Source of the DNA: a virus
Virus record (IMG/VR): IMGVR_UViG_3300044765_000006
Coordinates: 1-24,956 of that record
Direction: 5' to 3' (one strand)
DNA length: 24,956 bases
The notes beneath the pieces are model-generated. The model saw only the letters and a list, made by a program, of their open reading frames with translations, ran no database searches and had not been told where the DNA came from. Position 1 is the first letter of the stretch. Every line of letters starts with the position of its first letter. The position numbers and the translations under genes are program-made. Positions 1-17,788 of the stretch are shown here, piece by piece.

Positions 1-3
1 GTC

Positions 4-132
4 ATGCCGCTCAGAGACGACGACGAGCCATTGCCTCCGCACTGGTGCCTCGCCATCGCGTTCAGCGTCTCGTTCGCGATGTGGGGTGTGCTGATCCTGC
101 TCTTCCGCTGGCTCTGGTCGATGGTTCGGTAG
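4..132 (+). CDS. small single-pass membrane protein
   Basis: A 42-residue open frame starts with ATG at 4 and ends with TAG. The first 15 residues are acidic and proline-rich (MPLRDDDEPLPP), followed by one hydrophobic segment at about residues 16-36 and a short W/R-rich tail, so a single membrane span is likely. I do not recognise the family. The window begins three bases upstream, so the true start could lie outside it and the ribosome site cannot be judged. It lies on the same strand as the replication genes and ends 76 bases before them, which fits a small early phage protein. Confidence 0.45.
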   Translation: MPLRDDDEPLPPHWCLAIAFSVSFAMWGVLILLFRWLWSMVR

Positions 133-208
133 ATTTTGCGCGCGTCCATTCCGCTTCCCTCCCTGAGTGGAGCTCCACCGTGCCTGACCGGGGAGCCGCG
201 CGCATCCG

Positions 209-1048
209 ATGAGTGTCATCAGCCTCTGCAACTGGGAAGAGTTCCAGCACTACAAGGATCGCGATCCGCCGTGGATCAAACTCTATCGCGACATCCTCAC
301 GACCGAGTCTTGGGTTCTCGGCACTGACACAAGCCGGTTGGTGCAGGTTGCTAGCATGCTGCTAGCAGTCCGCTACAAGAATCGGATCCCCCTCAACTGG
401 CCCCTCCTGAAGAAGGTCGCGAGCCTCGATTGCACCGAATCTCAGTTCCGATCGGCCATCCAGCACCTCGAGCAATACGGCTTCCTCAAAGTTGAAGGAA
501 ATCAACAAGTCACCGATGACTCAGAGACTCTGGTGCACTCTGCTAGCACGCCGCTAGCAACTTGCACCTCAGAGAAGATCAGATCAGAGGAGATCAGAGA
601 AGAGGGAGAGCAGAGTAAGAATTCTGTCGAGCAGGAGCTCGACGACGCTGGACCAGTCGAGCGGGTGTTTGAGCACTGGCGAACGGAATACCGGCACCCG
701 AAGGCCGTCTTGGATTCCAAGCGCCGCAGGTGCATCCAGCAGGCGCTGAAGGGCTACGACGAACCGACGCTCCGCCAGGCCATCTCTGGCTACAAGCTCT
801 CGCCGCACCACATGGGCCAGAACGAGCAGCGGACGGTCTACGACGACATATCGCTGTTCCTCCGCGATGCCGAGCACATCGACCGCGGACTCAATCTCGC
901 CCGAGCTCCACCGCAAGCCGCGAAATCGGCGGTGGAGTTGGCGCGTGAGCGGTTACGGCAATCGGTGAACGGGCATGAGCGAGTGGTCGAACAGGCGGGA
1001 GGAGCGAGCAACGGTGGTGTGGGACCGCCTGCTCGGGTGCTTCGGTGA
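209..1048 (+). CDS. lambda O-like replication initiation protein
   Basis: A 279-residue protein with the layout of phage replication initiators. The N-terminal part (about residues 15-98) looks like a winged-helix DNA-binding domain that starts with the frequent phage motif NWEEFQHYKDRDPPWIKLYR. A charged, low-complexity linker follows (about 100-148, rich in E/K/S/R), then a C-terminal helical domain (about 149-225) with VFEHWRTEYRHP and YDDISLFLRDAEHIDRG. The family normally binds iterons at the origin and recruits the helicase loader. The next gene overlaps it by 74 bases, the same order as lambda O-P. A GGGGAG run at about 190 is rather far from the ATG. The DNA of residues 47-53 and 110-140 contains GCTAGC palindromes and a purine tract described separately. 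The role is inferred from domain layout and neighbours. Confidence 0.75.
   Translation: MSVISLCNWEEFQHYKDRDPPWIKLYRDILTTESWVLGTDTSRLVQVASMLLAVRYKNRIPLNWPLLKKVASLDCTESQFRSAIQHLEQYGFLKVEGNQQVTDDSETLVHSASTPLATCTSEKIRSEEIREEGEQSKNSVEQELDDAGPVERVFEHWRTEYRHPKAVLDSKRRRCIQQALKGYDEPTLRQAISGYKLSPHHMGQNEQRTVYDDISLFLRDAEHIDRGLNLARAPPQAAKSAVELARERLRQSVNGHERVVEQAGGASNGGVGPPARVLR
349..367. repeat. paired GCTAGC palindromes (first pair)
   Basis: Two identical 8-bp palindromes TGCTAGCA at 349-356 and 360-367 are separated by 3 bp, so their centres are 11 bp apart, about one helical turn. They lie inside the replication initiator gene. A second pair with the same spacing is at 541-559. They could be iteron-like binding sites of the initiator. 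Confidence 0.5.
541..625. other. candidate replication origin (second iteron pair plus purine tract)
   Basis: TGCTAGCA at 541-548 and CGCTAGCA at 552-559 repeat the 11-bp centre spacing of the first pair. About 10 bp further, 571-625 is strongly purine-rich on the plus strand and less GC-rich than its surroundings. It contains three copies of AGATCAGA (576-583, 581-588, 591-598). In lambda the origin also sits in the interdomain linker of the initiator gene, with iterons followed by a strand-asymmetric unwinding region. The call is an inference from that resemblance. Confidence 0.45.
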
Positions 1049-1628
1049 TTCCCTGCTGCGCAAGTTCGGCGCGACGCCGCCGGCCGAGTGGAAGGCCGCG
1101 ATCGTGGCGCTCAACGACGTGCAACTCGAGCGCGGGATGCGGCGGCTGCTGTTCGGCTGGAAGGGTGGGCCGCCGAACCTGCCCGACTTCATGCGCCTAT
1201 GCCGCACGGTGGGGGGCGACGACTTCGATGAGGGCCAGCATGATCTGCCCCGGCTGCCCACCGGGCCTGATCCCTGGGACGACAAGCCTTGGGAGAAGGC
1301 CGGCAACCGGTACCTGCTGGGCTACCTCGCCAAGCAACTCGGCCAGGACCCGAAGCGTTATGGGCGGCCCGCCAGCTATATGGCCATGCGCATGAGCGAG
1401 GAGGATCTGCGCAAGCGCGGATTGCATCGCAAGTTGCTCGATGCCTCGGAGGATTTCATCGCGAACGTCAACACGCTGGTGCGCGCCAAAAACGCCTGGG
1501 TGGAGGACATGAAAGACCTCGCAGCCAACAATCGCGGTGAGGTGGACCCGGCGACTCAGAAGGCTGTTTGGGCTGACTACTTCGGGCGCGCCGAAGCGGA
1601 AATCCTCAGCCGCAGGGATGCCGCATGA
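975..1628 (+). CDS. putative replication protein P-like / helicase-loader analogue
   Basis: A 217-residue protein directly after the O-like initiator, overlapping it by 74 bases. The conserved-looking N-terminal core VWDRLLGCFGDSLLRKFGA...EWKAAIVALNDVQLERGMRRLLFGWKGGPPNLPDFMRLC matches small phage proteins that pair with an initiator. The C-terminal half is charged and helical. Position and size (lambda P is 233 residues) suggest that it delivers or modulates the host DnaB-type helicase, but I see no AAA+ Walker motif, so it is not a DnaC-type ATPase. The start is uncertain: GTG codons at about 1014-1017 would reduce the overlap. The next gene begins within its stop codon (ATGA at 1625). Confidence 0.55.
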   Translation: MSEWSNRREERATVVWDRLLGCFGDSLLRKFGATPPAEWKAAIVALNDVQLERGMRRLLFGWKGGPPNLPDFMRLCRTVGGDDFDEGQHDLPRLPTGPDPWDDKPWEKAGNRYLLGYLAKQLGQDPKRYGRPASYMAMRMSEEDLRKRGLHRKLLDASEDFIANVNTLVRAKNAWVEDMKDLAANNRGEVDPATQKAVWADYFGRAEAEILSRRDAA

Positions 1629-1825
1629 GCCTGAAGTGGGACACCTCCGACCCCGGAGTACACCGCTCGAGCTGCGGCAAATATTGCACAGTCCGTGCGA
1701 CTGCGGAGCCGCCGAATTGGATCGCATATCGGCTGGGTCCGACGACTGGCGTGGAGCTCGGCTCGCGCCCTGACTCGGCTGCTGCGCGCGGTCTTTGCGA
1801 ACAGGATGCGAGGGCGGTGGCATGA
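1625..1825 (+). CDS. small phage protein, unknown function
   Basis: A 66-residue protein whose ATG overlaps the stop of the P-like gene (ATGA) and whose own stop overlaps the next start in the same way. The sequence begins MSLKWDTSDPGVHRSSCGKYCTVRATAEPPNWIAYRLG, a pattern I associate with short phage early-region proteins in which a small beta-sheet core reads off a W/Y-rich strand pair. No catalytic motif is visible. The tight coupling on both sides supports real translation. Confidence 0.55.
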   Translation: MSLKWDTSDPGVHRSSCGKYCTVRATAEPPNWIAYRLGPTTGVELGSRPDSAAARGLCEQDARAVA

Positions 1826-1956
1826 GCCGTCGCGATTACGCGCGTGAGTACTACCGTCGTAATGCCCACCGGCGCCGTGCGCAGAAAATCGAGAGTTTGC
1901 GGCGGCTCGGGAAAGCGCACCGGTACTCGCGAGAGCTGCAGCGGGAGGCGATGTGA
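1822..1956 (+). CDS. small basic protein, unknown function
   Basis: A 44-residue, strongly basic protein (MSRRDYAREYYRRNAHRRRAQK...) between two coupled genes. Its ATG lies in the upstream stop (ATGA at 1822) and its final ATG-TGA overlaps the GTG start of the next frame at 1953. It is probably helical, with about one third Arg/Lys, so nucleic acid binding is plausible but not shown. Its support comes mainly from the overlap junctions. Confidence 0.5.
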   Translation: MSRRDYAREYYRRNAHRRRAQKIESLRRLGKAHRYSRELQREAM

Positions 1957-2348
1957 ACGATTTCCCGACCCGTTACAGCAAGCGTCGCCTGGTGGAACTT
2001 GTGGCCGTGTGCATGGATCACCGCGGCCGGGCCGGGCTGAAGCTCGCCGCGACCATTTCTACCTCGCGAGGTTTGGAGCGTGAACTCTTCGACTGTGGTC
2101 CCACCCCCGAAGGACTCATCACCGGGCTCAGAGAGATCGCCGACTGGGTCGAGAATCGCATTCACGATCTACGAGCCGACGCCGAGCGTGAACAAGCTGC
2201 ACGGGCGGCATTGGTCGCGAAAGCTCAAGGAACGCCGCAAGTGGGGTTGGCTGGTGAAGGAAGCGCGCCTCAAAGCTGGGCTCTTCCCTTCGGCGCCTTC
2301 GAACCGCATTCGGCTGACCATCCACCGGTGGGGGCCACGGATGCTTGA
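1953..2348 (+). CDS. small protein upstream of and overlapping the resolvase gene
   Basis: An open frame of 131 residues starting with GTG inside the previous stop. The first ~70 residues (NDFPTRYSKRRLVELVAVCMDH..., ELFDCGPTPEGLITGLREIADWVENRIHDLRAD) look like a genuine helical protein. The C-terminal ~60 residues overlap the RusA core in another frame and have the composition of a shadow frame. Either the gene truly overlaps RusA by 269 bases, or the real protein ends near 2160 and a frame change joins it to RusA. Function unknown. Confidence 0.45.
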   Translation: MNDFPTRYSKRRLVELVAVCMDHRGRAGLKLAATISTSRGLERELFDCGPTPEGLITGLREIADWVENRIHDLRADAEREQAARAALVAKAQGTPQVGLAGEGSAPQSWALPFGAFEPHSADHPPVGATDA

Positions 2349-2508
2349 CCACGACAACTTCGTTGCCGGCACGAAGTTCCTCCAAGACGCCATTGTCGCT
2401 GAGGGCTTTGTCGTGGACGACAAGCCGAAGCACCTCGAGCCGCCGGTCTACAAGCAACACGTGGGTACGCCCCATCGAACCGAAATTCTGATCGAGGAGA
2501 TCGCATGA
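2080..2508 (+). CDS. rusA: RusA-type Holliday junction resolvase
   Basis: A RusA-like endonuclease resolves four-way DNA junctions formed during phage recombination and replication. The core is clear: FTIYEPTPSVNKLH at the start of the fold, then RMLDHDN, FLQDAI and GFVVDDKPKHL. The acidic residues D90, D92, D103 and D113/D114 (numbered from the GTG at 2080) correspond to the metal-binding Asp cluster of RusA. The first 25 residues from this GTG do not resemble RusA, which normally begins right at the FTIY strand. No ATG, GTG or TTG exists there; the only nearby codon is ATC at 2155. The start is therefore uncertain. The stop overlaps the next ATG (ATGA at 2505). Confidence 0.8.
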   Translation: MNSSTVVPPPKDSSPGSERSPTGSRIAFTIYEPTPSVNKLHGRHWSRKLKERRKWGWLVKEARLKAGLFPSAPSNRIRLTIHRWGPRMLDHDNFVAGTKFLQDAIVAEGFVVDDKPKHLEPPVYKQHVGTPHRTEILIEEIA

Positions 2509-2864
2509 CGAATCCGACCCAGATAAACTGGATTGACCCAACCGCCAACCTGGATGGTTCACCGATTGCCGCTGGCGAGATCGTCGCCTACGAGGTAGGC
2601 GTGCGTGACACGAGCGCTGCAGGCTCAGCCGCAGGTACCTATCCGTTCGGCGCCAAGGCGCCCAGTACCGCGATCTCCGAGCTCATCAGTGCCGTGCCGA
2701 ACCTGCCCACGGGCAAACCCCTGGCGGTTGCGGTGCGCGCGGTGACTGGCGTCAATGACAGCTCGGGGAATCCGATCACATCGGCTTGGAGCGACGAGGC
2801 GACCTTCGAGATAGCCCCGCCGCCACCGGTGCCCAACCGCCCTACTGGTGTCTCGGTGGCCTGA
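2505..2864 (+). CDS. fibronectin type III-like small protein
   Basis: A 119-residue protein coupled to RusA by an ATGA overlap. The sequence reads as one immunoglobulin/fibronectin III-type beta sandwich: INWIDPTANLDGSPI...EIVAYEVGVRD, then PNLPTGKPLAVAVRAVTG and SAWSDEATFEIAPPPPVPNRPTGV. The Pro-rich end looks like an interdomain linker with nothing after it. FnIII-type domains in phages are usually attached to virion surface proteins; here the domain stands alone in the replication-recombination region, so the role is unclear. Confidence 0.6.
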   Translation: MTNPTQINWIDPTANLDGSPIAAGEIVAYEVGVRDTSAAGSAAGTYPFGAKAPSTAISELISAVPNLPTGKPLAVAVRAVTGVNDSSGNPITSAWSDEATFEIAPPPPVPNRPTGVSVA

Positions 2865-3069
2865 TCTGCGCGCTCAGCAGATGGTTCCCGGGACTCAAAC
2901 TTACATGCGGCTGCCATTGACGGCCGCCCGCATGCTTGCGCTTTGGAGCGACGGCCGCTGCCTCAAGAAAGCCCAGCGCCGGCAGCACCCGCGGGCGCGC
3001 TACGTCGCAACCATGGTCGTGGAGATGCGCTGGCTCGGGCCGCTGACGCTGCCAGGACGATTACTGTGA
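2848..3069 (+). CDS. small basic protein, unknown function
   Basis: A 73-residue open frame from GTG at 2848, with an alternative ATG at 2881 that avoids most of the overlap with the FnIII-like gene. The product is rich in Arg, Leu and Met with no recognised domain. The main support is the downstream junction: its TGA overlaps the GTG start of the zinc-knuckle gene at 3066 in the GTGA pattern used throughout this cluster. Confidence 0.4.
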   Translation: MSRWPDLRAQQMVPGTQTYMRLPLTAARMLALWSDGRCLKKAQRRQHPRARYVATMVVEMRWLGPLTLPGRLL

Positions 3070-3245
3070 GGGAACACGCCAAGAGCCAGAAGTATACGGG
3101 CCGACCCTGCAGAAGATTTGGACACACGTTGCGATACGTGAAAGGCGGTAGTTGTGTCGAGTGCCAGAAAGCCGCCGCCGCAAAACAACGGGCGGCAAAA
3201 GTTAGAATGCCAATGTTCCATGTGGAACATTCCCACGAAAGTTAG
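3066..3245 (+). CDS. zinc-knuckle mini-protein (HNH-associated motif)
   Basis: A 59-residue basic protein from GTG at 3066, overlapping the preceding TGA. It carries C15-x4-H20 and C30-x2-C33 in the pattern GRPCRRFGHTLRYV...GSCVECQKAAAAKQR. This knuckle is often seen at the start of phage HNH endonucleases and in stand-alone small proteins; the HNH catalytic part is absent here, so a nucleic-acid-binding role is more likely than cleavage. An upstream TTG at 2943 would add a low-complexity extension and is disfavoured. The last residues (MFHVEHSHES) are encoded by a DNA palindrome resembling parS, described separately. Confidence 0.65.
   Translation: MREHAKSQKYTGRPCRRFGHTLRYVKGGSCVECQKAAAAKQRAAKVRMPMFHVEHSHES
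3212..3231. promoter_or_regulatory. parS-like palindrome
   Basis: A perfect 9-bp inverted repeat with a 2-bp centre. The inner 16 bases, TGTTCCATGTGGAACA (3214-3229), differ at one central base from the parS form TGTTCCACGTGGAACA bound by chromosomal ParB proteins in Pseudomonas-like bacteria. It falls in the 3' end of the zinc-knuckle gene. Confidence 0.55.
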
Positions 3246-3311
3246 AAAGCGGGGTCAACATCAGAAGCGACACCCTTGGAAAGGCAAGCGCGGATGATTT
3301 AGGGTCGCCCC

Positions 3312-3506
3312 ATGCCCAGCATATCCGGCAAACAGCATCGCTTCATGGAGATGGTCGACCATGATCCTGCGGCCGCCAAGCGCGTTGGCGTGCCTCAATC
3401 AGTCGGAAAAGACTTCGTCGCCGCTGACAAGGCGCAAGGGAAGCGTTTCGCTGGTCACAAGCCCGAGCATGCCAAGCGATTGGCTCATGCGCTGAAGAAG
3501 CGGTGA
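3312..3506 (+). CDS. small basic conserved phage protein
   Basis: A 64-residue Lys/His-rich protein beginning MPSISGKQHRFMEMVDHDP, with VPQSVGKDFVAADKAQGKRF in the middle and a basic tail. Proteins of this form (KQHR...GVPKSVGKEFVAAD) are common in phages and often lie just before terminase genes; their function is not known to me. It has its own 66-base leader (3246-3311) without an obvious Shine-Dalgarno sequence. It ends immediately before the tandem dyads that precede the small terminase gene. Confidence 0.7.
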   Translation: MPSISGKQHRFMEMVDHDPAAAKRVGVPQSVGKDFVAADKAQGKRFAGHKPEHAKRLAHALKKR

Positions 3507-3556
3507 GCCCATTATTTTAATGGGCATGCCCAATATTTAAATGGGCGAAAATGGGC
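3507..3556. repeat. tandem 19-bp dyads before terS
   Basis: GCCCATTATTTTAATGGGC at 3507-3525 and GCCCAATATTTAAATGGGC at 3528-3546 match at 17 of 19 positions and start 21 bp apart, two helical turns. Each is a GCCCA-N9-TGGGC dyad, and the junction forms a 12-bp palindrome TGGGCATGCCCA (3521-3532). A further TGGGC half-site is at 3552-3556, at the start of terS. This AT-rich spot in GC-rich DNA could be an operator or a terminase recognition site. No T run follows, so a terminator is unlikely. Confidence 0.6.
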
Positions 3557-3928
3557 AAGCAAACAGGCAGGCCACGCGGCCGTCCCAAGGGAGCGAAGAA
3601 CCGGCATACCGTGGAGCGGGAGGAGGCGATAGCCGAGGCTGCTGCACTGACACAGGAAGCGTTGGGTATACGCGCATTCGATGGCGATGCGCACGCGCTG
3701 CTGATGCTGGTCTACAAGGACACTGCGCAGCCGTTGGATTTGCGGCTCGACGCCGCGAAAGCCGCGATTGGCTACGAGAAACCCAAGCTCTCAGCCGTCG
3801 ATGCCAATGTGAACGGCGCCATGGGCCACTATGAAGCCCAGCCCATCCCAACCGAACACCGTCACAGTGATACCGTGGCGAGCCCAGCCGGGCCCGCAGC
3901 TAACGGCCATTCAGCACGACCTGGTTGA
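3551..3928 (+). CDS. terS: putative terminase small subunit
   Basis: A 125-residue protein immediately before the large terminase, overlapping it by 98 bases. It opens with a double AT-hook-like motif GRPRGRPKGAKNRHT, followed by helices and the segment PLDLRLDAAKAAIGYEKPKLSAVDAN, a pattern typical of the DNA-recognition gene paired with phage terminases. The C-terminal 40 residues are low-complexity and His/Pro-rich. The expected role is to recognise the packaging site and load TerL. An alternative ATG at 3541 is in another frame. The tandem dyads end within its first codons, so it may bind its own upstream region. Confidence 0.65.
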   Translation: MGKQTGRPRGRPKGAKNRHTVEREEAIAEAAALTQEALGIRAFDGDAHALLMLVYKDTAQPLDLRLDAAKAAIGYEKPKLSAVDANVNGAMGHYEAQPIPTEHRHSDTVASPAGPAANGHSARPG

Positions 3929-5288
3929 TGAGCTGCTCTACGGGGGTGCGGTATTCGGCGGGAAGTCAGATTTCTTGCTCGGTGACTTCGCGCAAGACGT
4001 GCCGCGTCCATATGGCAAATATTGGCACGGCATCCTCTTCCGCAAGAGCTACAAGCAGCTCGAGGATCTAATCGCCCGCTCGAAGGAGATTTATCCCCAG
4101 TGGTTCCCGGGGTGCAAATGGACCGGCAGCAGTAAAGAGTTAGAGAAGGCATGGGTATGGCCGAACGGCGCAACACTCCGCATGCGCCATATGGATCATC
4201 AGGACGACTGGCAGGAATACTGGGGCCACGCCTATACCTGGATCGGCTGGGACGAGCTTGCGCTATGGCCCAGCTCAGTCGCATACAAGATGCTCAAGGC
4301 CCGCTTGCGCAGTGCTCAGGCCAACATCCCGAACAAGCGCATACGCGCCTCCGCGAATCCTGGCGGCCCTGGACATCACTGGGTGCGAGCGCATTTCAAA
4401 ATCGACGAGTACCCGCTCGGCGGTCAGATCTTCGAGGAGGATGGAATGCGCCGCCTCTTTATTCGTGCGCGGATGGCTGACAACAAGATCGGCATGCAGA
4501 ACGATCCGAAGTACGAATCGCGCATGGACGGTTTGGGATCGCCTCAACTGGTAAAAGCTCTGAAAGAGGGCGACTGGAGCATCATTGCCGGGGCGTACTT
4601 CCCCGAGTTCAATCCCGACCGACATGTCGTGCGCCCCTTCGAGATCCCGAAGTATTGGGCGCGCATCCGCGGCATGGACTGGGGCTCGGCCAAGCCGTTC
4701 TGTGTTCTATGGGCAGCGGTCTCTGACGGCAGTATTCCCGAAATACCACGCGGCTGGCTCGTCATCTATCGCGAGTGGTATGGCTGGAATGGGGAGCCGA
4801 ATACCGGTTGCAAGATGCCAGCAGAGAAGGTCGGGGCCGGAATCAAGGATCTCGAGACCGGCGAAAAGATGGCGGATGAGGTGCTCGACCCGGCCGCATT
4901 CGCACGCGATGGAGGGCCTAGCATCGCAGAGCGCCTTGATTTAGGGTTCCGGCGGGCTGACAACTCCCGGGTGGCGCAGGGCGGACGGATGGGCGGTTGG
5001 GATCAAGTTAGAGCACGGCTCGATGCGACTGAGACGCCCGGTCTCATCGTCTTTTCCACTTGCACGCATCTCATCCGCACGCTGCCGGCGCTCCAGCACG
5101 ACAAGCACAAGCCGGAAGACGTCGACACCGAGAGCGAGGACCACGCGCCGGATACGCTGCGGTATATCTGCATGTCACGCCCGGTGACCCGCGACAAGCC
5201 GAAGGATCAGCCGGCCCGGTTCCCGACCGATTTAACTATCAGCGAACTCGTAAAGCGCCAGACGCAGCGGCGCTTGTCGGAGCAGTAA
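3831..5288 (+). CDS. terL: terminase large subunit
   Basis: The packaging motor that cuts concatemeric DNA and pumps it through the portal. Of 485 residues, the N-terminal ATPase has Walker A GGAVFGGKS (38-46), Walker B WIGWDE (137-142, catalytic E142) and the coupling motif SANPGG (174-179). The C-terminal RNase H-like nuclease shows GMDWG (D283), LDPA (353-355) and EDHAPD (D437/D441). Length and motifs are complete. The annotated ATG overlaps terS by 98 bases; a GTG at 3867 would shorten both the overlap and the unconserved N-terminus, and neither has a strong ribosome site. It is followed without a gap by a small beta-rich gene. Confidence 0.93.
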   Translation: MKPSPSQPNTVTVIPWRAQPGPQLTAIQHDLVDELLYGGAVFGGKSDFLLGDFAQDVPRPYGKYWHGILFRKSYKQLEDLIARSKEIYPQWFPGCKWTGSSKELEKAWVWPNGATLRMRHMDHQDDWQEYWGHAYTWIGWDELALWPSSVAYKMLKARLRSAQANIPNKRIRASANPGGPGHHWVRAHFKIDEYPLGGQIFEEDGMRRLFIRARMADNKIGMQNDPKYESRMDGLGSPQLVKALKEGDWSIIAGAYFPEFNPDRHVVRPFEIPKYWARIRGMDWGSAKPFCVLWAAVSDGSIPEIPRGWLVIYREWYGWNGEPNTGCKMPAEKVGAGIKDLETGEKMADEVLDPAAFARDGGPSIAERLDLGFRRADNSRVAQGGRMGGWDQVRARLDATETPGLIVFSTCTHLIRTLPALQHDKHKPEDVDTESEDHAPDTLRYICMSRPVTRDKPKDQPARFPTDLTISELVKRQTQRRLSEQ

Positions 5289-5618
5289 ATGGCCAATGGC
5301 GTTGCGTTTCAGCCCCGCGGATCGAACCAGACTACGCCTGCCGGCACGGTGAGCGGCGCGGTCACGGCGTCGGTGACCCAAATCAATCTGCCGAGCGCTC
5401 CGTATGCGACTGACACAGTTGGCCGCTTCGTCAATGATGGTACGCAGGAGATCTTCTGGGCCTATGGCAGCGAGTCAGGGCTCACAACCGCCAACGGCGT
5501 CCCGATGCTTGCCAATACGGTCGAGACGTTCAGCATTCCGGCGGGTGTCACGCAGATTTCCGTGATTGCAGGCGCCACGGGTTCGACGCTGCGAATCACG
5601 GTTGGGGACGGGCAGTGA
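5289..5618 (+). CDS. small beta-rich protein between terminase and portal
   Basis: A 109-residue protein starting at the base after the TerL stop. It is rich in Thr, Ser, Val and Gly, with alternating strands (GVTQISVIAGATGSTLRITVGDG at the end) and lacks Cys and charged clusters, suggesting a compact beta sandwich such as a head decoration or fibre-like virion protein. I do not recognise a named family. Its TGA overlaps the GTG start of the next gene (GTGA at 5615). Confidence 0.6.
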   Translation: MANGVAFQPRGSNQTTPAGTVSGAVTASVTQINLPSAPYATDTVGRFVNDGTQEIFWAYGSESGLTTANGVPMLANTVETFSIPAGVTQISVIAGATGSTLRITVGDGQ

Positions 5619-6334
5619 GTCTGCGCGCTGTCGCCGGCATCAGTTCAGCCGTCGCCAACATTCTGGCGAAATGCGGCATCCCGTTCATCATCGCGCCCAC
5701 CGGCACGATGGGGAACAACGGCGCGATTACGCTAGGAACCGCGCTCCCGACGACCTACGCCAACGCGTATATCTACCTGCCGGCCAATGCGATTCAGGCC
5801 GGCTCATCGGTGGGCTGGTACTTCTGCCAGATGTCCTCCGCGACCGTGGGCACGGTGTTCAACAACACCTACACCACGGGCGTGCCGAGCATCCCGGCGA
5901 GTCCGACGGCATTCGTCTCGACCGGCCCAGGTGCTTATACCGGTGTGACGACCGCGGTTAGCGGACCGCAGATCTCGATCCCGGCTGGGTCGCTCGGAAT
6001 CCTCGGGGAGCTTCGTACGGCCGCCTTGTGTGGCACAATCAACAACGCCAATACCAAGACTCTCACCCTCACGGTGGGCGGTAGCACGGTTAAGAGCCTC
6101 GCGATCACGACGAGTGTTTCGTGCGAAGTGCTCAGTACCGTCTACTGTCGCGGCAGCCAATCGGCTCAGGTGAGCCACGCCAGCGGCCAGTTTGGACCCG
6201 GCACGGCTGGCGGATCTCCCGTTTACAACAGCATCAATTTCGCCAACGCTCAGACTTGGATTCTGGGCGGTCAACTTGCAGTTGCGACGGACTTTCTGGT
6301 GCTCGAAGCCTTCGCGATTGAAGTAATGCCGTAA
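5615..6334 (+). CDS. putative virion structural protein, beta-rich
   Basis: A 239-residue protein from GTG at 5615. It is almost free of charged residues and dominated by Thr, Ser, Ala, Gly and Val: AITLGTALPTTYANAYIYLPANAI, VGTVFNNTYTTGVPSIPASP, TKTLTLTVGGSTVKSLAI. Similar modules occur in phage fibre and decoration proteins, so a surface-exposed virion role is likely but not proven. Together with the preceding gene it separates terminase from portal. The stop overlaps the portal ATG by one base (TAATG at 6332-6336). Confidence 0.6.
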   Translation: MSLRAVAGISSAVANILAKCGIPFIIAPTGTMGNNGAITLGTALPTTYANAYIYLPANAIQAGSSVGWYFCQMSSATVGTVFNNTYTTGVPSIPASPTAFVSTGPGAYTGVTTAVSGPQISIPAGSLGILGELRTAALCGTINNANTKTLTLTVGGSTVKSLAITTSVSCEVLSTVYCRGSQSAQVSHASGQFGPGTAGGSPVYNSINFANAQTWILGGQLAVATDFLVLEAFAIEVMP

Positions 6335-8565
6335 TGGCGGAGAAAGCCACTACGGATAAAGCAGCCGAAGCGCGCCGCTGGAAGCGCGAGATAATGCTAG
6401 CCAGCAAGCGCGAGAAGGACTGGCGCGATGAGGCTGAAAAGGTCGTCAAGCGCTATCGCGGCGAGGAGAAGAAGCGCAATCGCTACAACGTGCTTTGGGC
6501 TACTACCGAGACGCTCCGTCCCGCTGTTTACAACAGCAAGCCAAACCCTGATGTACGCCGCCGCTTCCGGGACTCTGACCCGCTCGGAAAGGCGGTTGGC
6601 GAGGTGCTCGAGCGCTCGCTGTTCGTCATGTTCGATTCAGACGAGCCGGATGCGGCAATCCGCAATGACGTGCTCGATGGATTGCTTTCAGGCCGCGGTG
6701 TCTCGCGCATCAAGTACGTTCCGAAGCTGAGTCAGTCAGGGACCGCGCCCACCAAACCGAAGGTCGAATCAGAAGATATCGGCGGCAGCGAGCCGCATGA
6801 GGATGACGAAGGATCATACGAGCAGGTCGAGTACGAACAGACCTGTCTCGAGCACGTCGACTGGCGTGATTATCGCCAGGGCTATGGCCGCACCTGGGAC
6901 GAAGTGCCGTGGAATGGCTTTCGACACAAAATGATTCGCTCGGATGCGGAATCGAAGTTCGGCAAGGAAGCTGTAGCGACAATTACCTTCGCCCAGCCGA
7001 ACACGGACGATCCAAAGAAGCCGACCGAAGAAGCCGGCGAGACACAGAAGGTCGCCGAGTTTTGGGAGATCTGGGACAAGCTCGGTCAGCGGGTGTTTTT
7101 CATTCAGGAGGATCTCGAGCAGCTCCTATTCCCGCTCGACAATCCCGATGGCTCGCCCCCGCTCGACTTCGAAGGCTTCTTCTGCTGCCCCGAGCCGCTG
7201 AAGATGATCGAGAATACCGGGTCGCAGATCCCCATCATCCCGTTCACGCTCTACGAGAACCAGGCCAACGAGCTCGACAAGATCTCGGTACGCATCGATC
7301 GCATCGTGAATGTCTGCCGCCTGCGCGGCATCTATGATTCGAAGCTGCCGGAGATTCCAGATCTCCTTGCGGGCGACGATAACGAGCTGACACCGGTTCA
7401 GAACGCGCAGCAATGGTCTGACAAGGGGCTGGATGCGGCAATCGCTTGGATGCCGGTAGAGAAGCTCCAGGCGGTTCTGGCGACGCTCTACGATGCTCGT
7501 GAGAAGCAGCTGGCCATCATCGATCAGCTCACTGGCGTTTCCGACATCGTCCGCGGCGCCACCGACCCGAATGAGACTGCGACCGCTCAGCAGATCAAGA
7601 GCAACTATCATTCGCTGCGGCTCGGGCGCATGCAGGGCGAGGTGAAACGGTACGTCAAGGATCTGATGCGGCTCGCCTCTCAGGTCATGAGCAGCAAGTT
7701 CGCTGCTGAGACATTCGCGGCGATGACGGATCTGAAGTTTCCGACGCCTCAGGAGAAGCAGGAGCTTCAGATCAAAGCGCAGATGCTGGCGCAGCAGCCG
7801 CAGATCCCTGGCCAGCCCCCGCCACAACCGCCTCCGGAGCTCGTACAAGCCCTGCAGGTTCCGACCTGGGAAGACATCCTAGGGATGATGCATTCGCCGG
7901 CCCTGCGTCAGTTCCGGGTCGACGTAGAGACTGATTCGACCATTGCGGCGATGCTCGATTCGGACATGACGGCCCTGTCAGCACTGCTGAAAGCAATTTC
8001 GCAGATGCTCATGGAACTGGCGCCATTGGTGCAGTCTGGCGCCCTCCCGGTCGAGGCCGCGAAAGAGATCGTCATGGCGGTTATCCGGCGCGCGCGGCTT
8101 GGCACGGCCGTCGAGGATGCCTTCGACAAGATGCAGATGCCGAAGCCACCCCCGCAACCTCAGGACCATGCTATCGAGGTGGCGCAGATCAATGCCGCCT
8201 CACACGAGAAGATCGAGGGAGCGAAGCTCCAGGCCGCCGGGCAGACCGCGCAGATTGAGCAGGCGGCCCAAGCTCAGCAGCGCCAAGCCGAGTTGGAAAT
8301 GGAACTGCGCAGAACGCAGCTCGAGGCCGATATCGAGATCCGAAAGGATGCCCAAGAGAAGCAACACGAGTTGTCGCTCAAGACGGCCGAGCACGATCTC
8401 GAACTCAGGAAGCTTGCGGCTCAACTTGAAAATGAGCGGCTAATCGCTGATGCGAACAACCAGACCAAGATCATGGTGGCTGAGATTGCCGCCAAAGCGC
8501 AGCAAGCCGCGGCCGCCATGACGGCGGCGAATTACGAGAAGGAAGAAGAGGGTGTCGATGCGTAG
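6334..8565 (+). CDS. portal protein
   Basis: At 743 residues this is the size of podovirus (P22-type) portals, the dodecameric ring at the packaging vertex. Typical features are an N-terminal stem region with AVYNSKPNPDVRRRFRD (about 65-80), a central region with IVRGATDPNETATAQQIKSN (about 404-423) followed by a helix of the kind that lines the channel, and a long C-terminal extension. The extension has a Pro/Gln-rich segment (about 489-505) and then a Gln/Glu/Ala-rich coiled coil (about 610-743), which may form the barrel seen in P22-like portals. The ATG overlaps the upstream stop by one base. Confidence 0.85.
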   Translation: MAEKATTDKAAEARRWKREIMLASKREKDWRDEAEKVVKRYRGEEKKRNRYNVLWATTETLRPAVYNSKPNPDVRRRFRDSDPLGKAVGEVLERSLFVMFDSDEPDAAIRNDVLDGLLSGRGVSRIKYVPKLSQSGTAPTKPKVESEDIGGSEPHEDDEGSYEQVEYEQTCLEHVDWRDYRQGYGRTWDEVPWNGFRHKMIRSDAESKFGKEAVATITFAQPNTDDPKKPTEEAGETQKVAEFWEIWDKLGQRVFFIQEDLEQLLFPLDNPDGSPPLDFEGFFCCPEPLKMIENTGSQIPIIPFTLYENQANELDKISVRIDRIVNVCRLRGIYDSKLPEIPDLLAGDDNELTPVQNAQQWSDKGLDAAIAWMPVEKLQAVLATLYDAREKQLAIIDQLTGVSDIVRGATDPNETATAQQIKSNYHSLRLGRMQGEVKRYVKDLMRLASQVMSSKFAAETFAAMTDLKFPTPQEKQELQIKAQMLAQQPQIPGQPPPQPPPELVQALQVPTWEDILGMMHSPALRQFRVDVETDSTIAAMLDSDMTALSALLKAISQMLMELAPLVQSGALPVEAAKEIVMAVIRRARLGTAVEDAFDKMQMPKPPPQPQDHAIEVAQINAASHEKIEGAKLQAAGQTAQIEQAAQAQQRQAELEMELRRTQLEADIEIRKDAQEKQHELSLKTAEHDLELRKLAAQLENERLIADANNQTKIMVAEIAAKAQQAAAAMTAANYEKEEEGVDA

Positions 8566-8893
8566 GCGTTATCGCTGGGATCCGAAGTCTGAATCGATGG
8601 TCGAGGTGCCATGGGATTCGACGCAGCAGTCGCTTTCGCCCGCAGTTTGGAACGATTTGCCGGGCTACCAATCGCCCGTTAGCGGACTGTGGGTAGAGGG
8701 GCGTAAGGCGCGCCGCGAGGATTTGAAGCGTACCGGATCGCGACCTTACGAGGGTTTCGAGCAGGAGAAAAAGGAAGCCGAGCGTGTCCAACGCGAGAAC
8801 GATCGCAAGTTGGACCAACTGGCCGAGAAGATGGCCCATCGCGCGTGGGCCGAAGCGCCCGAACGTATCCGACGAGTATTCCGAGGCAAATAG
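8552..8893 (+). CDS. small conserved head-module protein
   Basis: A 113-residue protein overlapping the portal 3' end by 14 bases (GTG 8552; ATG 8558 is an alternative). The core SPVSGLWVEGRKARREDLKRTGSRPYEGFEQEKKEAERVQRENDRKL is a pattern I know from small proteins located between portal and scaffold in many phages: a short beta segment carrying the W-V-E-G-R motif and then a charged helix. The function is unassigned. The pairing with portal and scaffold suggests an assembly role. Confidence 0.65.
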   Translation: MSMRRRYRWDPKSESMVEVPWDSTQQSLSPAVWNDLPGYQSPVSGLWVEGRKARREDLKRTGSRPYEGFEQEKKEAERVQRENDRKLDQLAEKMAHRAWAEAPERIRRVFRGK

Positions 8894-8902
8894 GACAACC
8901 CT

Positions 8903-10081
8903 ATGCTGGCTGAGAAAGATATCGATCAGACGATGGCTGCCGACTGGGCAGCGATCCGCGAGAAGTATGCGGAGCCCGAGGAAGGCGCCCCCGAGCCAGC
9001 AGAAGCGGCTGAACAGCCGCAGGTAGCCGAGGCCGCTTCCGAGCCGCAGGAACCGCCCGCCATTGAGCGCGCCCGCGACGAATCCGGGAAGTTCGTTAAA
9101 ACGTCGAAAGAAAAGGAGCCGATAGCCGCACCCGCGGAAAAGGGCGGTCCCGATAAGTCCGCCGGGTCGCAACCGGTAGAGAACGCCCCTGAGAGCACGG
9201 CAGAGGCGGCCGGGGCCCTCCCTTCGCGCGATACCAACCGCGCTCCATCGACGTGGAAACCGACCGAAAGGCTAGCTTGGGACAAGATCCCGCCGGAAGC
9301 GCGCGCCGCCATTCATCGCCGTGAAGCTGACTTCCTGGCCGGTCAGTCGCAGCTCCTGCCGGATGCGCAGCTCGGCAAGAGCATGCGCCAGGTTGTCGAG
9401 CCTTACCGTATGCTCATCGAGGCGGAGGGCGGTACGCCGGAACGCGCGGTTGCCGATCTCCTGCGCACGGCCGCCGTCTTTCGTGTGGGGACGCCTCAGC
9501 AGAAGTATGGCGCCATTGCGCAAATCGCTCAGCAGTACGGCATCGATCTGAGCGTATTCAGCCAGCAGCAACAGCCCGGACAGCAGCTTCAGCATGCCCA
9601 GCAACAGCAATTTCACGATCCCCGAGTCGACCAATTACTGGCGAATCAGCAGCGCCAGGAAGCAGAACGGACACAGCGCGAGCAGGTCGAGTTAGAGAAT
9701 GGCGTCACCCGCTGGATGAACGAGACGGATGCTCAGGGCCAGCCGCTACGGCCGTATGTAGGCGATGTCATCAACGAGATGTACGCGCTGCTCCCACAGA
9801 TAAAACAGGCCAACCCGGCCTTGACAACTGCCCAAGCTTTGGAAGAGGGTTACCAGCGTGCGATTTGGGCTCACCCCGAAATTCGCACGATATTGCAGCA
9901 GAAGGCTGCAAGCGACCTCGAGGCGCAACGCCGGGCTGAAAACCAGACTCGGGTACGTGAAGCCAAGCGAGCCGCTTCCGTGAATGTGCCGCGCCGAGCC
10001 TCTCTCCCCACTCCGGCAAAACCCGGAACGCTGGAAGAGACCATCGCTGCCACAGCACGCGAGTTGGGACTCATCACGTAA
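8903..10081 (+). CDS. putative scaffolding protein
   Basis: A 392-residue protein directly before the major capsid gene, the usual scaffold position. The N-terminal ~110 residues are disordered and rich in E, P and A, containing the ERARDESGKFVK motif typical of phage scaffolds. The middle (about 115-215) is helical: WKPTERLAWDKIPPEARAAIHRREADF, then PYRMLIEAEGGTPERAVADLLRTA and YGIDLSVF. A Gln-rich stretch (about 215-250) and a basic C-terminal region follow, the latter expected to contact coat protein. No protease domain is visible, so scaffold release without self-cleavage is assumed. There are 40 bases to the capsid gene, holding a hairpin. Confidence 0.7.
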   Translation: MLAEKDIDQTMAADWAAIREKYAEPEEGAPEPAEAAEQPQVAEAASEPQEPPAIERARDESGKFVKTSKEKEPIAAPAEKGGPDKSAGSQPVENAPESTAEAAGALPSRDTNRAPSTWKPTERLAWDKIPPEARAAIHRREADFLAGQSQLLPDAQLGKSMRQVVEPYRMLIEAEGGTPERAVADLLRTAAVFRVGTPQQKYGAIAQIAQQYGIDLSVFSQQQQPGQQLQHAQQQQFHDPRVDQLLANQQRQEAERTQREQVELENGVTRWMNETDAQGQPLRPYVGDVINEMYALLPQIKQANPALTTAQALEEGYQRAIWAHPEIRTILQQKAASDLEAQRRAENQTRVREAKRAASVNVPRRASLPTPAKPGTLEETIAATARELGLIT

Positions 10082-10083
10082 CC

Positions 10084-10107
10084 GCCCGCGCTCATGATGC
10101 TGCGGGC
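10084..10107 (+). other. hairpin between scaffold and capsid genes
   Basis: GCCCGC (10084-10089) pairs with GCGGGC (10102-10107) around a 12-base loop. A GAGG ribosome site and a TTTT run follow before the capsid ATG. It could slow transcription or protect the capsid mRNA 5' end; it is too loose to call a terminator. Confidence 0.4.
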
Positions 10108-10121
10108 AGAGGTTTTCAGCC

Positions 10122-11123
10122 ATGCCCGCCGGCATTTCCAGTATTTTTCAGGCGTGGACCGAGCTCGCGGCCACGACCTATCGAAAACACGAATCCGAAG
10201 TTGCTGACAACGTCAGCAAGCACAACGCTCTCTTCCGCAAGATCACGGCCAAAGGTCGGGTGCGCAAGGAAGATGGCGGTTTGTCGATCGTCACGCCTCT
10301 CGAGTACGCCACCAACTCGACCTACCAGCGCTATTCCGGTTTCGATGCGCTCAACATCAATGCCGTCGACGTCCTGACGGCCGCGGAGTATCCGTGGCGC
10401 CAGGTGGCGGTGAACGTGGCTGCTTCGGGCCTTGAGCTTCGCACGAACATGGGCGAGTCGCGGATCATCAACTTCACCAAGGCGAAGATCCGCAACGCCA
10501 TGAACTCGTTCAAGAACGGCATGTCCGGGGATATCTATTCGGACGGTACGGCCGCGAACCAGATCAACGGCATTCAGGCGCTTGTCGCCGATACCGGCAC
10601 GGGCACGGTCGGCCAGATCAACTCAAGCACGTTTTCGTTCTGGCAGAACCTCGTCCAATCGGCTGCCGCGCCCCTGCAGGGTGGTTCGGCATTGACGCTG
10701 GGCCCGTCGACAATCGAAGCACTGATGCTCGCGCTCTACATCAAGTTGACGCGCGGCACGGACCAGCCCGACATGATCGTTTTCTCGGACGATCTCTACA
10801 CGTACTTCGAGCAGTCACAGACCAGCTTGAAGCGCTATACGGACGATGCGCGTGGGACGCCGGAGAACGATGCCACCGCTGGCTTCGTGACGTTGAAGTA
10901 CAAAAACGCCACCGTGTTCTTCGATTCCTCAGGCGGCATCCCGGCGGTTCACGGCTACTTCCTCAACACGGACTATCTGGAGCTCGTGGTCCACCGCGAC
11001 GCCGACATGACCGTGATGGAAGAGCTGAAGAGCGTCAACCAGGACGCCGTCGTAATCCCTGTTCTATGGATGGGCAACCTCGTGACCAGCGCGCGGTTCC
11101 TGCAGGGTGTTCTGAAGTCCTAA
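10122..11123 (+). CDS. major capsid protein (HK97-fold type)
   Basis: A 333-residue protein expected to form the icosahedral shell. It has the architecture of HK97-fold coat proteins: an N-terminal helical arm (residues 1-50, FQAWTELAATTYRKHESEVADNVSKHNALFRKI), an E-loop-like region, a long spine helix around NFTKAKIRNAMNSFKNGMSGDIYSDGT, and the P-domain sequence INGIQALVADTGTGTVGQIN...FWQNLV often seen in coat proteins of environmental podoviruses. There is no N-terminal delta domain or protease nearby, consistent with a separate scaffold. A GAGG about 9 bases upstream sets the ATG. Confidence 0.88.
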   Translation: MPAGISSIFQAWTELAATTYRKHESEVADNVSKHNALFRKITAKGRVRKEDGGLSIVTPLEYATNSTYQRYSGFDALNINAVDVLTAAEYPWRQVAVNVAASGLELRTNMGESRIINFTKAKIRNAMNSFKNGMSGDIYSDGTAANQINGIQALVADTGTGTVGQINSSTFSFWQNLVQSAAAPLQGGSALTLGPSTIEALMLALYIKLTRGTDQPDMIVFSDDLYTYFEQSQTSLKRYTDDARGTPENDATAGFVTLKYKNATVFFDSSGGIPAVHGYFLNTDYLELVVHRDADMTVMEELKSVNQDAVVIPVLWMGNLVTSARFLQGVLKS

Positions 11124-11131
11124 TCGACTAC

Positions 11132-11147
11132 CCCGGTGAAAACCGGG
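11132..11147 (+). other. GNRA-loop hairpin after the capsid gene
   Basis: CCCGGT (11132-11137) and ACCGGG (11142-11147) enclose a GAAA tetraloop, giving a compact stable hairpin 9 bases after the capsid stop and upstream of an AGGAG ribosome site. No T run follows. It may stabilise the 3' end of the abundant capsid transcript or partly attenuate transcription. Confidence 0.5.
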
Positions 11148-11163
11148 ATGTCAGGAGAGAGAG

Positions 11164-11988
11164 ATGCGATACGGTCCTTTGTTCCCCTACGCCGGCGCGC
11201 GGCCACTCCAGGAGTACTTCCTGGGTGCCAATGACGTCGGCAATCCAGATTTCGGCGCCGGTTACAACGGCCCGGGTTCGGTCCCCCCGTTCATGCCGCC
11301 TGGTGCGATCGTGCCGGGCTTCGACAACTACTGGGGCGGCGTCGAATTCCAGTACTGCTACTTCAACTCCGCCGTCGCTCCGTGGACGCCGGTCACCATC
11401 AAGCCAGCCAGCAATCTGGTCACCGGCCGTTTTGTGTTTGTGGCGTCTGCGGTGGCGAATAGTGCGAACCAATCACGCCCGATGGGCGTGGCGATCGCTC
11501 TGCAGGCTGCTGGCCAGTATGGATGGGTGGCAGTCTCTGGCCTGGTGCCCGTGCTGTCGACCGCCTCCGTTGCCACGGATACCCCGCTCGGTATCACCGG
11601 TGCGGGCACGCTCGGCGCTTCCAGCGCTGGCAAGGAGATCGAGAACCTCATCGGTGTTCTGCCGGCCACCACGACCGTGACCAAGAACGTGCTCACGACT
11701 TCCGGGTCTGGTGTCGTGCTGGTGACGGGCAATAACACCATCGATGGGCTCTTCATCGGTGCTGCAGTCTCCGGTACCGGCATCCCCGCGGGTGCGGTGG
11801 TCGGCACGATCGATCCAGACGGCCGTCGCTTCACCATGTACGCAGGTCCTGGCGTATCGGCCAGTAGCACGGTGGCGACGGCCACGGCTACCGGCGGTAT
11901 CACGCTCACCGCTACGTACAACGACGGGACGAACTACTACAACGTCGTGCAGCTCAATCGTCCGTTCTGCCAGGGTCGCATCACCTGA
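11164..11988 (+). CDS. capsid-proximal virion protein, possible decoration or fibre
   Basis: A 274-residue protein with a strong ribosome site (AGGAG) before its ATG. The N-terminal half is aromatic and Gly/Pro-rich (YAGARPLQEYFLGANDVGNPDFGAGYN, NYWGGVEFQYCYFNSAVAP). The C-terminal third (about 172-262) is a Thr/Val/Gly-rich beta module containing VSGTGIPAGAVVGTIDPDGRRFTM, a motif that recurs as an inserted or appended domain in phage surface proteins. It ends with a short Asn/Tyr-rich strand that appears to complete the first domain. Its place after the coat protein suggests a shell-decorating role. Confidence 0.6.
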   Translation: MRYGPLFPYAGARPLQEYFLGANDVGNPDFGAGYNGPGSVPPFMPPGAIVPGFDNYWGGVEFQYCYFNSAVAPWTPVTIKPASNLVTGRFVFVASAVANSANQSRPMGVAIALQAAGQYGWVAVSGLVPVLSTASVATDTPLGITGAGTLGASSAGKEIENLIGVLPATTTVTKNVLTTSGSGVVLVTGNNTIDGLFIGAAVSGTGIPAGAVVGTIDPDGRRFTMYAGPGVSASSTVATATATGGITLTATYNDGTNYYNVVQLNRPFCQGRIT

Positions 11989-11998
11989 AGGAGCACGT

Positions 11999-12367
11999 AT
12001 GCCTCTCGCACAACGACTCGTTCAGGCTGGGTTGTCCGCCGTTCAGGCCGCGGCGATTGCCGGCACAGTGGCCGACAATCTCACAGCCACCGGCACAACG
12101 CAGGGCGGCGCGCTGGCACTGGGTGCCGATACGAACCGACTCACGACGGTGTCGGCCAACAGTGGGGCGATCCTACCGGCAATGAATCCAGGGGATTCCG
12201 TCGAGGTTATCAACGTCGGAGCGAACGCGCTGAAGTTGTATCCCCCAGTGGGTGGACAGATCAACGCTCTGGGCACCAATGCGGCGTATTCGATCGCGAC
12301 CGCGACGCCGTACTGCACGGTGACCTGTACCAGTCCCACCCAGTACCACGCCTTCCAGTCTTCATAA
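11999..12367 (+). CDS. small capsid-proximal protein
   Basis: A 122-residue protein from the ATG at 11999, preceded by an AAGGAG ribosome site 5 bases upstream. It starts MPLAQRLVQAGLSAVQAAAIAGTVADNLTA and continues as a beta-rich fold with EVINVGANALKLYPPVGGQINALG, ending in CTVTCTSPTQYHAFQSS. I recognise the overall pattern from small proteins encoded next to phage coat proteins, without a known function. It is the last gene before a GC-rich hairpin, so it probably ends a transcription segment. Confidence 0.7.
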   Translation: MPLAQRLVQAGLSAVQAAAIAGTVADNLTATGTTQGGALALGADTNRLTTVSANSGAILPAMNPGDSVEVINVGANALKLYPPVGGQINALGTNAAYSIATATPYCTVTCTSPTQYHAFQSS

Positions 12368-12371
12368 CTAA

Positions 12372-12400
12372 CGGGGGCGCAAGCCCCCGCTTCCTTTTCA
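12372..12400 (+). terminator. probable Rho-independent terminator
   Basis: CGGGGGC (12372-12378) and GCCCCCG (12383-12389) form a 7-bp all-GC stem closed by a GCAA tetraloop, followed by the pyrimidine-rich CTTCCTTTTC. The stem and loop are those of a good terminator; the T tract is interrupted, so termination may be partial and let late transcription through to the neck genes. Confidence 0.65.
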
Positions 12401-12415
12401 CCGGAGAAAACCTCC

Positions 12416-13063
12416 ATGACGATCGGCATCGCAGACAAACGCCCTCCCTTTGTGCAGTTCGAGGAGCGCGAGCTCGGGATCAACGCAGAAGCGTCAGAGC
12501 GGGCAGGGCGGCCCATTCCAAACATCGTGACGCTCGCCTGTATCACACCGCACGGCTCCAAGGATCGATTCGAGAAGGTCGCCGAGGACTGGCTGAAGCA
12601 GATTCGGGCCCAAGCCATGACGGGATCGTATCCGCTCGAATGGGTCAACTTCTTCGAGGCGCAGTACGGCGAATGGAAGAAGGGCAACGAGCTTCCGCGC
12701 GAGGGCACGCCCACCAAGACCTGGCAGGCAGCGACCAAGGAGCAGTCCACACGGTTGGCCGCCATGGGCTATACGACGGTGGAGGATGTGGCGCAGATCC
12801 CCGATTCGGCCCTCGGTTCGATCGGCCCAGATGGCCGTTACCTGCGCGATCTGGCCAAGAGCTGGATCAATGAGGCAAAGGACAAGGGAATCAATGCAAA
12901 GGCTCTGGCCGATGCCAACGTACGGATTGAGCAGCAGGAGGAGACGATTCGGAGCCTGCGAGAACGCATGGCGGCTCTCGAGCATCGGCTCGCCGATCAG
13001 CCGAAGCGCGGGCCCGGTCGGCCACCGCGGGAGCGCGGAATCATGGAGGATGACGCGGCTTGA
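12416..13063 (+). CDS. coiled-coil virion-associated protein with AT-hook-like tail
   Basis: A 215-residue protein. The first half contains PNIVTLACITPHGSKDRFEKVAEDWLKQI and LEWVNFFEAQYGEWKKG. A helix-hairpin-like segment follows (RLAAMGYTTVEDVAQIP...GPDGRYLRDLAKSWI), then a predicted coiled coil (about 160-193, IEQQEETIRSLRERMAALEHRL). The C-terminus is basic with an AT-hook-like core GPGRPP. Similar proteins sit between coat and neck genes in podovirus-type phages and may bind DNA or the shell interior; no enzyme motif is present. It follows a probable terminator and overlaps the next gene by 4 bases. Confidence 0.55.
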   Translation: MTIGIADKRPPFVQFEERELGINAEASERAGRPIPNIVTLACITPHGSKDRFEKVAEDWLKQIRAQAMTGSYPLEWVNFFEAQYGEWKKGNELPREGTPTKTWQAATKEQSTRLAAMGYTTVEDVAQIPDSALGSIGPDGRYLRDLAKSWINEAKDKGINAKALADANVRIEQQEETIRSLRERMAALEHRLADQPKRGPGRPPRERGIMEDDAA

Positions 13064-17507: not shown

Positions 17508-17788
17508 GCGCAGACCCGGGAATGATGGCGCAAATGCTCGCCAGCCGTTTGGGCGGTTCACAGGGCGGCTACGTCGGTGGTGGCCAGCAACCTGGCCCGC
17601 AGATCGCTCCGCAAGGGCAGGGCGCTGCAGATATTGCGCAGAAGCTAATGCTGATGGCCGCGCTCCGGCGCAATCCGCAGCAGCTTCAGGCTCCCCAGCA
17701 GCCGCTGCAGCCGAACATGATCGGCGGCGTGAACGCGCTTCCGCAGGCCCTCCAGGCACAACAGATGCCGGGGGGCGTCAATGCCTGA
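17504..17788 (+). CDS. small Q/P-rich protein
   Basis: A 94-residue protein coupled by ATGA to the S74 gene and overlapping the next gene by 8 bases. It is dominated by Gln, Gly, Pro, Ala and Met (MMAQMLASRLGGSQGG, NPQQLQAPQQPLQPNM) with one helix (ADIAQKLMLMAALRR). No family is recognised. It shares composition with its two neighbours, so it is probably another virion or ejection component. Confidence 0.55.
   Translation: MSADPGMMAQMLASRLGGSQGGYVGGGQQPGPQIAPQGQGAADIAQKLMLMAALRRNPQQLQAPQQPLQPNMIGGVNALPQALQAQQMPGGVNA

Follow-up and report, generated by a model that had tools for sequence, protein, structure and literature searches.

A linear virus fragment of 24,956 bases (the window, meaning the whole stretch of DNA analysed here) carries at positions 3214-3229 the palindrome TGTTCCATGTGGAACA, one mismatch away from the parS form TGTTCCACGTGGAACA. 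We consider it reasonably probable that this is a putative phage-borne parS that would load the chromosomal ParB of the host, with positioning and segregation of the phage DNA as its presumed main use. The palindrome lies among the following features.

2505..2864, plus strand: conserved 119-aa protein upstream of the site, 58% identical in the relative L281; no PHROG or Pfam match.
3066..3245, plus strand: small Cys/His protein, 59 aa from a GTG start or longer if the TTG at 2943 is used instead; its codons 50-55 (MFHVEH) cross the site.
3212..3231, no strand: perfect 9-bp inverted repeat around TG, AATGTTCCA-TG-TGGAACATT.
3214..3229, no strand: parS-like palindrome TGTTCCATGTGGAACA; the core of one arm holds the single mismatch.
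3220..3297, plus strand: small basic protein MWNIPTKVRKRGQHQKRHPWKGKRG, whose ATG at 3220 is in the palindrome centre; no PHROG match.
3312..3506, plus strand: conserved 64-aa protein, PHROG 16759.
3551..3928, plus strand: probable small terminase subunit, assigned from its position; the sole PHROG match is of unknown function.
3831..5288, plus strand: large terminase subunit, matched in PHROGs and used as the query for finding relatives.

The first-pass annotation had described a parS-like match at 15 of 16 bases within a perfect 9-bp inverted repeat, and both descriptions were borne out. Compared with the 16-bp parS palindrome TGTTYCACGTGRAACA, the site agrees at 15/16 bases with its mismatch in the core, and the arms AATGTTCCA (3212-3220) and TGGAACATT (3223-3231) are fully complementary, the flanking C and C being unpaired. 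The site is single: no other parS match at up to three mismatches was found in the 24,956-base window, where 0.06 would be expected (100 shuffles). A generic RNA hairpin or terminator was rejected because 3180-3260 folds no better than shuffled sequence does (z -0.96) and because the class to which the site belongs is one sequence rather than any stem. PHROG matches in the window include terminase, portal, major head protein, tail proteins, endolysin and a replication initiation protein; no tRNA was found in it, and a tRNA or attachment site was set aside as an explanation of the palindrome. The earlier statement that the window has no parB gene also held, in that we found no ParB_N domain (PF02195) in the window and no match to a partition family among the 20 window ORFs compared with PHROGs. 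With ParB_N absent and no partition family among those 20 ORFs, the parA and parB genes that would lie beside the site in a phage-encoded ParABS system are not seen in the window.

The gene that reads through the palindrome had been described as encoding a zinc-knuckle protein with MFHVEH as its last residues. Its product does have the pattern C-x4-H-x9-C-x2-C, from which the label was drawn, and matches only PHROGs of unknown function, with no Pfam match; MFHVEH proves to be residues 50-55 of 59, the ORF at 3066-3245 ending in MFHVEHSHES. A second ORF, overlooked in that annotation, opens at ATG 3220 within the palindrome itself, and its product MWNIPTKVRKRGQHQKRHPWKGKRG resembles MTIPKKRVKGGHKNRRDHPWKRKRP... 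at the same place in two relatives, L267 and L268 (translations compared by eye). Further downstream, the terminase ORFs 3551-3928 and 3831-5288 overlap by 98 bases in different frames, an arrangement that is similar in L266, L267 and L268.

The relatives of the window phage give some indication of how the site arrived. A near-identical phage with 98% terminase identity, represented by L122 and L266 on one contig, keeps both the palindrome and the Cys/His gene, and it is the only phage in which the 59-aa protein was found whole. Neither the palindrome nor the protein was found at this place in L267 and L268, whose terminases are 84% and 82% identical, a lack of conservation in place that weighs against the parS reading; another relative that is 98% identical (L265) begins after the site's place and is hence uninformative. 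Since L267 and L268 lack both elements and the near-identical phage keeps both, the palindrome and the Cys/His gene seem to have come in together, as a single insertion ahead of the terminase genes.

Parallel sites occur elsewhere in this phage group. We searched 34 whole records. Of these, 33 are terminase relatives, for the most part the longer among a total of 77; the other, L123, shows partial relatedness to the Cys/His protein alone. A parS-class site was found in five of the 34, with approximately 0.02 expected in all. One of the five is the near-identical phage and the others come from four of 32 other terminase relatives, each with its site at a different place, so that parS-class sites are over-represented in the window's group; the 28 of 33 terminase relatives without a site include many fragments. 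The record G094 (L586, 1945-1960) has the window's exact palindrome, centred on CATGTG, 33 bp 3′ of an integrase ORF. The L586 site is just before a tRNA T-arm-like stretch, TTCGAATC, which may be an attP. The site of G102 is inside the large terminase gene, that of G108 is within a 358-aa ORF and that of G113 is in a stretch without a clear gene. An exact site is also found in the terminase gene of L339, which was outside the whole-record set. In addition, parS-like strings with zero to two mismatches occur in the large terminase match of L281, L339, L272, L274, L279, L280, L282, L287 and L289, at 509-887 bp past the match start; the string codes for FHVEHW in L281 and is perfect in L281 and L339. 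The strings in terminase genes could be second sites or coincidences of codon choice; the latter is suggested because parS-like strings coding for FHVEHW or a similar peptide recur there in several relatives. Integrase matches were obtained in eight of the 18 relatives tested, six of them above the cut-off, which suggests that much of the window's phage group is temperate. An attempt to reach the host through prophages returned only four terminase relatives in MAGs, all distant (33-40% identity) and under four different group names.

The palindrome is not a chance string, and its class is strongly over-represented in phages. In a full scan of IMG/VR (2.9 million viral contigs), the 18-mer ATGTTCCATGTGGAACAT was found in 113 stretches, compared with two for the same letters reversed. 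The 16-base form of the window is present in at least 120 stretches, against 21 in all for its reverse, and the canonical and mixed parS forms are each present in at least 120. Twelve of the first 120 stretches reappear among those with the 18-base form, from which we estimate a total of approximately 1,100 IMG/VR stretches for the 16-base form. A BLAST search of the 50,697 INPHARED records, with counts that include near matches and duplicate GenBank/RefSeq records, returned 173 and 145 records for the canonical form flanked in two ways, 274 for the mixed form and 62 for the window form; the controls returned 35 records (GC-centred) and 0 of 50,697 (reversed canonical). We checked the actual stretch in nine phages listed by the INPHARED search, of which five have an exact parS-class site, one each (Butyrivibrio phage Arian, Microbacterium phage Smarties, Arthrobacter phage Lennox, Klebsiella phage RaK2 and a Listeria wastewater contig); the remaining four differ from such a site by a single base (Salmonella phage Munch, Escherichia phage 212, Mycobacterium phage Bane2 and Stenotrophomonas phage Siara). 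Among the matches listed, those to Klebsiella and Salmonella phages are mostly to phages of 337-360 kb and, where annotated, are inside a gene, in several cases a baseplate wedge gene. One of 21 control records, chosen with an unrelated 16-mer, has a parS-class site. Host contamination of viral contigs was rejected as a general source of these sites since named phage genomes show the same sites, though it may apply to individual IMG/VR records.

Some viral contigs carry many sites. G051 (116.7 kb) has 24 parS-class sites in clusters at 91,700-95,691 and 105,761-112,396, with no ParB_N; in the part of it designated L503, 11 of 12 sites are in one orientation and the twelfth is symmetric. G056 (L476; 169 kb) has 12 sites, at 1-18,169 and 168,792-169,061, also with no ParB_N, and these form one cluster within approximately 19 kb if the ends are joined in a circle.

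The forms taken by the site in named phages were examined by searching 14 records whole with TGTTNCANNTGNAACA, a pattern that allows 256 forms. Thirteen of the 14 hold a total of 33 sites, with approximately 0.06 expected, and all conform to TGTTYCA(CG/TG/CA)TGRAACA: 15 are canonical, 11 are mixed (TTTC/GGAA) and seven are centred on CATGTG, as in the window. The reversed pattern gave no site in the same 14 records. The first site in a record cannot count as independent, the records having been picked from BLAST matches, but any additional site can. In phiPsa374 and vB_PpS_SYP, two of the 33 may be terminal-repeat copies. Nine of the 14 records carry two to five sites, and the window carries only one, which weighs against the parS reading. 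Three of the named records combine the window variant with canonical or mixed sites. In a 5-kb ssDNA phage, the gokushovirus KT264816.1 (L346), a CATGTG-centred site is followed back to back by a canonical one (TGTTCCATGTGGAACATGTTCCACGTGGAACA, 2893-2924) in the gap between VP2 and VP4; further microvirus records are among the matches listed. Pseudomonas phage Ep020 has four sites in three forms. The mixture of forms in single genomes argues for one reader protein and fits the variation of chromosomal parS, for which TGTTCCACGTGGAACA and tGTTNCACGTGAAACa are both tabulated in PMC7022226. The Otagovirus phiPsa374 (L456) has a mixed site in its direct terminal repeat, at 389-404 and again at 98,150-98,165 of the record, and related phiPsa phages have matches in the terminal repeat among those listed. 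In none of the annotated phage records examined are the sites annotated as parS.

In ten named records, 19 of 23 annotation-checked sites are intergenic: gokushovirus 2/2, Amme-3 1/2, phiPMW 3/3, vB_PF_Y1-MI 2/2, vB_PpS_SYP 4/4 checked, KPP25 1/1, phiPsa374 1/1 (in the terminal repeat, its second copy uncounted), UAVern 4/4, Xenohaliotis phage 1/3 (touching one gene base) and microvirus MT135387 0/1. Ten sites in unannotated, sparsely annotated or unchecked stretches were excluded from this count (Ep020 4, XD2 3, MG945300 1, vB_PpS_SYP 1, phiPsa374 1). For the window form in IMG/VR, 40% of 91 distinct sites (locus ends and repeated flanks dropped) are without a 100-codon ORF, compared with 9% of random places (p 4e-12). 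This intergenic bias is not proof, because the small reversed control also gave 29% (4/14, p 0.08). Sites of the class occur in all six reading frames, with the FHVE frame accounting for 23 of 184, and because of this spread the class at large is held at the DNA level. Selection on the peptide FHVEH across phages was rejected on the same six-frame spread, although it may act in this window.

ParB genes are scarce in the phages that bear the site. ParB_N was found in none of the 14 named records and in nine of 82 site-bearing IMG/VR records, seven of the nine above the curated cut-off. The 82 are the longer contigs among the matches listed (36 of 120 for the window form, 14 of 120 for the canonical and 32 of 120 for the mixed), many of them fragments, and the nine comprise six of the first 50 and three of the 32 mixed. 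None of eight control records, one of which has a parS-class site, contains ParB_N.

A precedent for a phage that carries such sites for the protein of its host is the virulent Bacillus phage phi29, whose genome is reportedly directed into spores by host Spo0J, the B. subtilis ParB. It turned up in the INPHARED search with the mixed form and has four perfect TGTTTCACGTGGAACA sites, compared with 0.1 expected at up to two mismatches; one of the four is intergenic and three are inside genes, and neither parA nor parB is among its annotated genes. The window resembles phi29 in having a phage-borne parS-class site, with no ParB_N found in its 24,956-base linear fragment; it differs in having one CATGTG-centred site and in belonging to a group with integrase matches. 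Together with the IMG/VR enrichment and the parS degeneracy seen in named phages, the phi29 control lends support to the original suggestion of a ParB-type site on a phage fragment. A second likeness is to SGI1, with parS-like sites that hijack the ParABS of an IncC plasmid (PMC10954446). Like this mobile element, the window phage would borrow the ParB of another replicon through mimic sites; SGI1 has plasmid-type parS and a helper plasmid, while the window has a chromosomal-type parS, presumably read by the ParB of the host chromosome. Mycobacteriophages and P1 also have a phage centromere-like site, as in the window, but encode their own ParA and ParB in a phage ParABS (PMC11652158). The 16-mer was not found in the papers of the open-access literature searched. 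A survey of host-type parS in phages was likewise not found among titles and the starts of abstracts, a scope that mostly leaves aside subscription papers, and we do not claim that none is in print; PMC12704722, PMC10197239 and PMC13190303 are about the folds of ParB, parS in bacteria and a lambda engineered to carry parS.

The changed centre of the window site weighs against its reading as parS. In P. aeruginosa, ParB binding suffers most from changes in the CACGTG core, although a site that keeps one arm intact is still bound and ranks higher than one altered in both (PMC4368675), and half-sites are bound in vivo (PMC10419367). Like the chromosomal parS of P. aeruginosa, the window site matches at 15/16 bases and has one arm intact; it differs in the C to T change in the core, in being phage-borne and in being single. 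Among 140 genomes from the phylum to which a Myxococcales MAG belongs, one had the exact variant, with approximately 0.4 expected by chance and 0 for the reversed control, and consequently it does not serve as a chromosomal parS in the one phylum tested; this may differ in the phylum of the window's host. Four MAGs tested have one canonical or TTTC/GAAA site each. As the variant failed this sole chromosome test, membership in chromosomal parS is not claimed; the evidence supports a site that would work like parS. The C to T change at the centre removes the CACGTG palindrome. That palindrome is a known restriction target, and its loss could explain a tolerance of, or preference for, the variant in phages, a suggestion that we offer as an idea only.

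Sites within genes add a further caution. Klebsiella phage RaK2 (L590, 192-207) has an exact canonical parS inside a large gene, and Salmonella and Escherichia phages have near parS forms inside genes. To our knowledge, Klebsiella, Salmonella and Escherichia hosts are without chromosomal ParABS. The exact site of RaK2, in a host group of this kind, means that a site alone does not prove the use of ParB, and some sites do arise through coding alone. The window string could itself be such a functionless by-product, of the coding of MFHVEH and an overlapping start codon. With the codon usage of the window, MFHVEH alone would yield a parS-class string with a probability of approximately 0.11 (8 of 64 synonymous codings). 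In favour of this origin, parS-like strings also recur where the large terminase of relatives codes for FHVEHW or a like peptide (L281 and L339 have exact ones), and Klebsiella, Salmonella and Escherichia phage genes contain exact or near sites. Its extended 9-bp arms, the 113 to 2 excess of the 18-mer and the occurrence of sites in all six frames argue otherwise, and we regard this origin as quite unlikely. Less probable again is that the site belongs to a phage-encoded or other conserved DNA-binding protein and is merely parS-like, which we rank last among the explanations weighed here. The nine ParB_N-bearing records among 82 and the failure of the centre variant to appear as a chromosomal site in the phylum tested would fit such a protein, but the class spans 4-5-kb ssDNA microviruses to tailed phages of approximately 100 kb, in which no shared gene is expected, and it follows the degeneracy of parS at positions 5 and 12.

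Two other readings share the ParB-binding step with the one that we prefer. ParB, or its spreading, might serve mainly for local gene control by repressing or timing neighbours, here the small basic gene whose start codon, ATG 3220, is inside the palindrome. In L503, a stop triplet (in any frame) is at most six bases before 8 of 12 sites and a Shine-Dalgarno-like start is at most 40 bases after 10 of 12, and eight sites in vB_PpS_SYP, UAVern, KPP25, the Xenohaliotis phage and phi29 are within 2 bp of an annotated stop codon. However, nearness to gene ends may only mirror the room available in a compact genome, and 76 of 184 sites are under an ORF of at least 150 codons; we regard control of neighbouring genes as the main function as unlikely, though the strongest of the competitors. 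Alternatively, replicated phage parS could act as a decoy that titrates ParB off the host origin and disturbs host segregation. The 24 and 12 sites of the two IMG/VR records without ParB_N (G051 and G056) would suit a decoy, as would the sites in microviruses and virulent phages, for which partition when the cell divides is of little importance. With a single site in the window, and no more than five sites in 12 of 13 other site-bearing IMG/VR records (in a comparison whose multi-site records were picked for being multi-site) and in 13 of 13 named records, titration seems very unlikely here. In the preferred reading, host ParB with CTP would load at the site and slide out over the adjoining phage DNA. 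In this way the genome of the phage, whether it is entering, replicating or kept as an episome, would be coupled to the host's ParA and SMC. Phage DNA would then be positioned and segregated with the nucleoid, as is reported for phi29 (entrapment in the spore through Spo0J) and for SGI1. Because the site sits on the start codon of the small gene, bound ParB could also damp that gene as a by-product.

Among phages that use a host segregation protein, phi29 has seemed to be an exception linked with sporulation. Phages probably borrow this protein more widely than that one textbook case. Whether borrowing of the host centromere-binding protein is a general viral strategy, extending over unrelated virulent and temperate phages and from 5-kb microviruses to contigs with 24 sites, and whether phages favour a CATGTG variant that some chromosomes do not use, is in our judgement evenly balanced. 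If the proposal is true, the site would provide a simple sequence mark for host-virus contact. If parS is common in the phages of non-sporulating hosts, including fast killers and microviruses, then host ParB would serve phage DNA in ways that go beyond entry into the spore.
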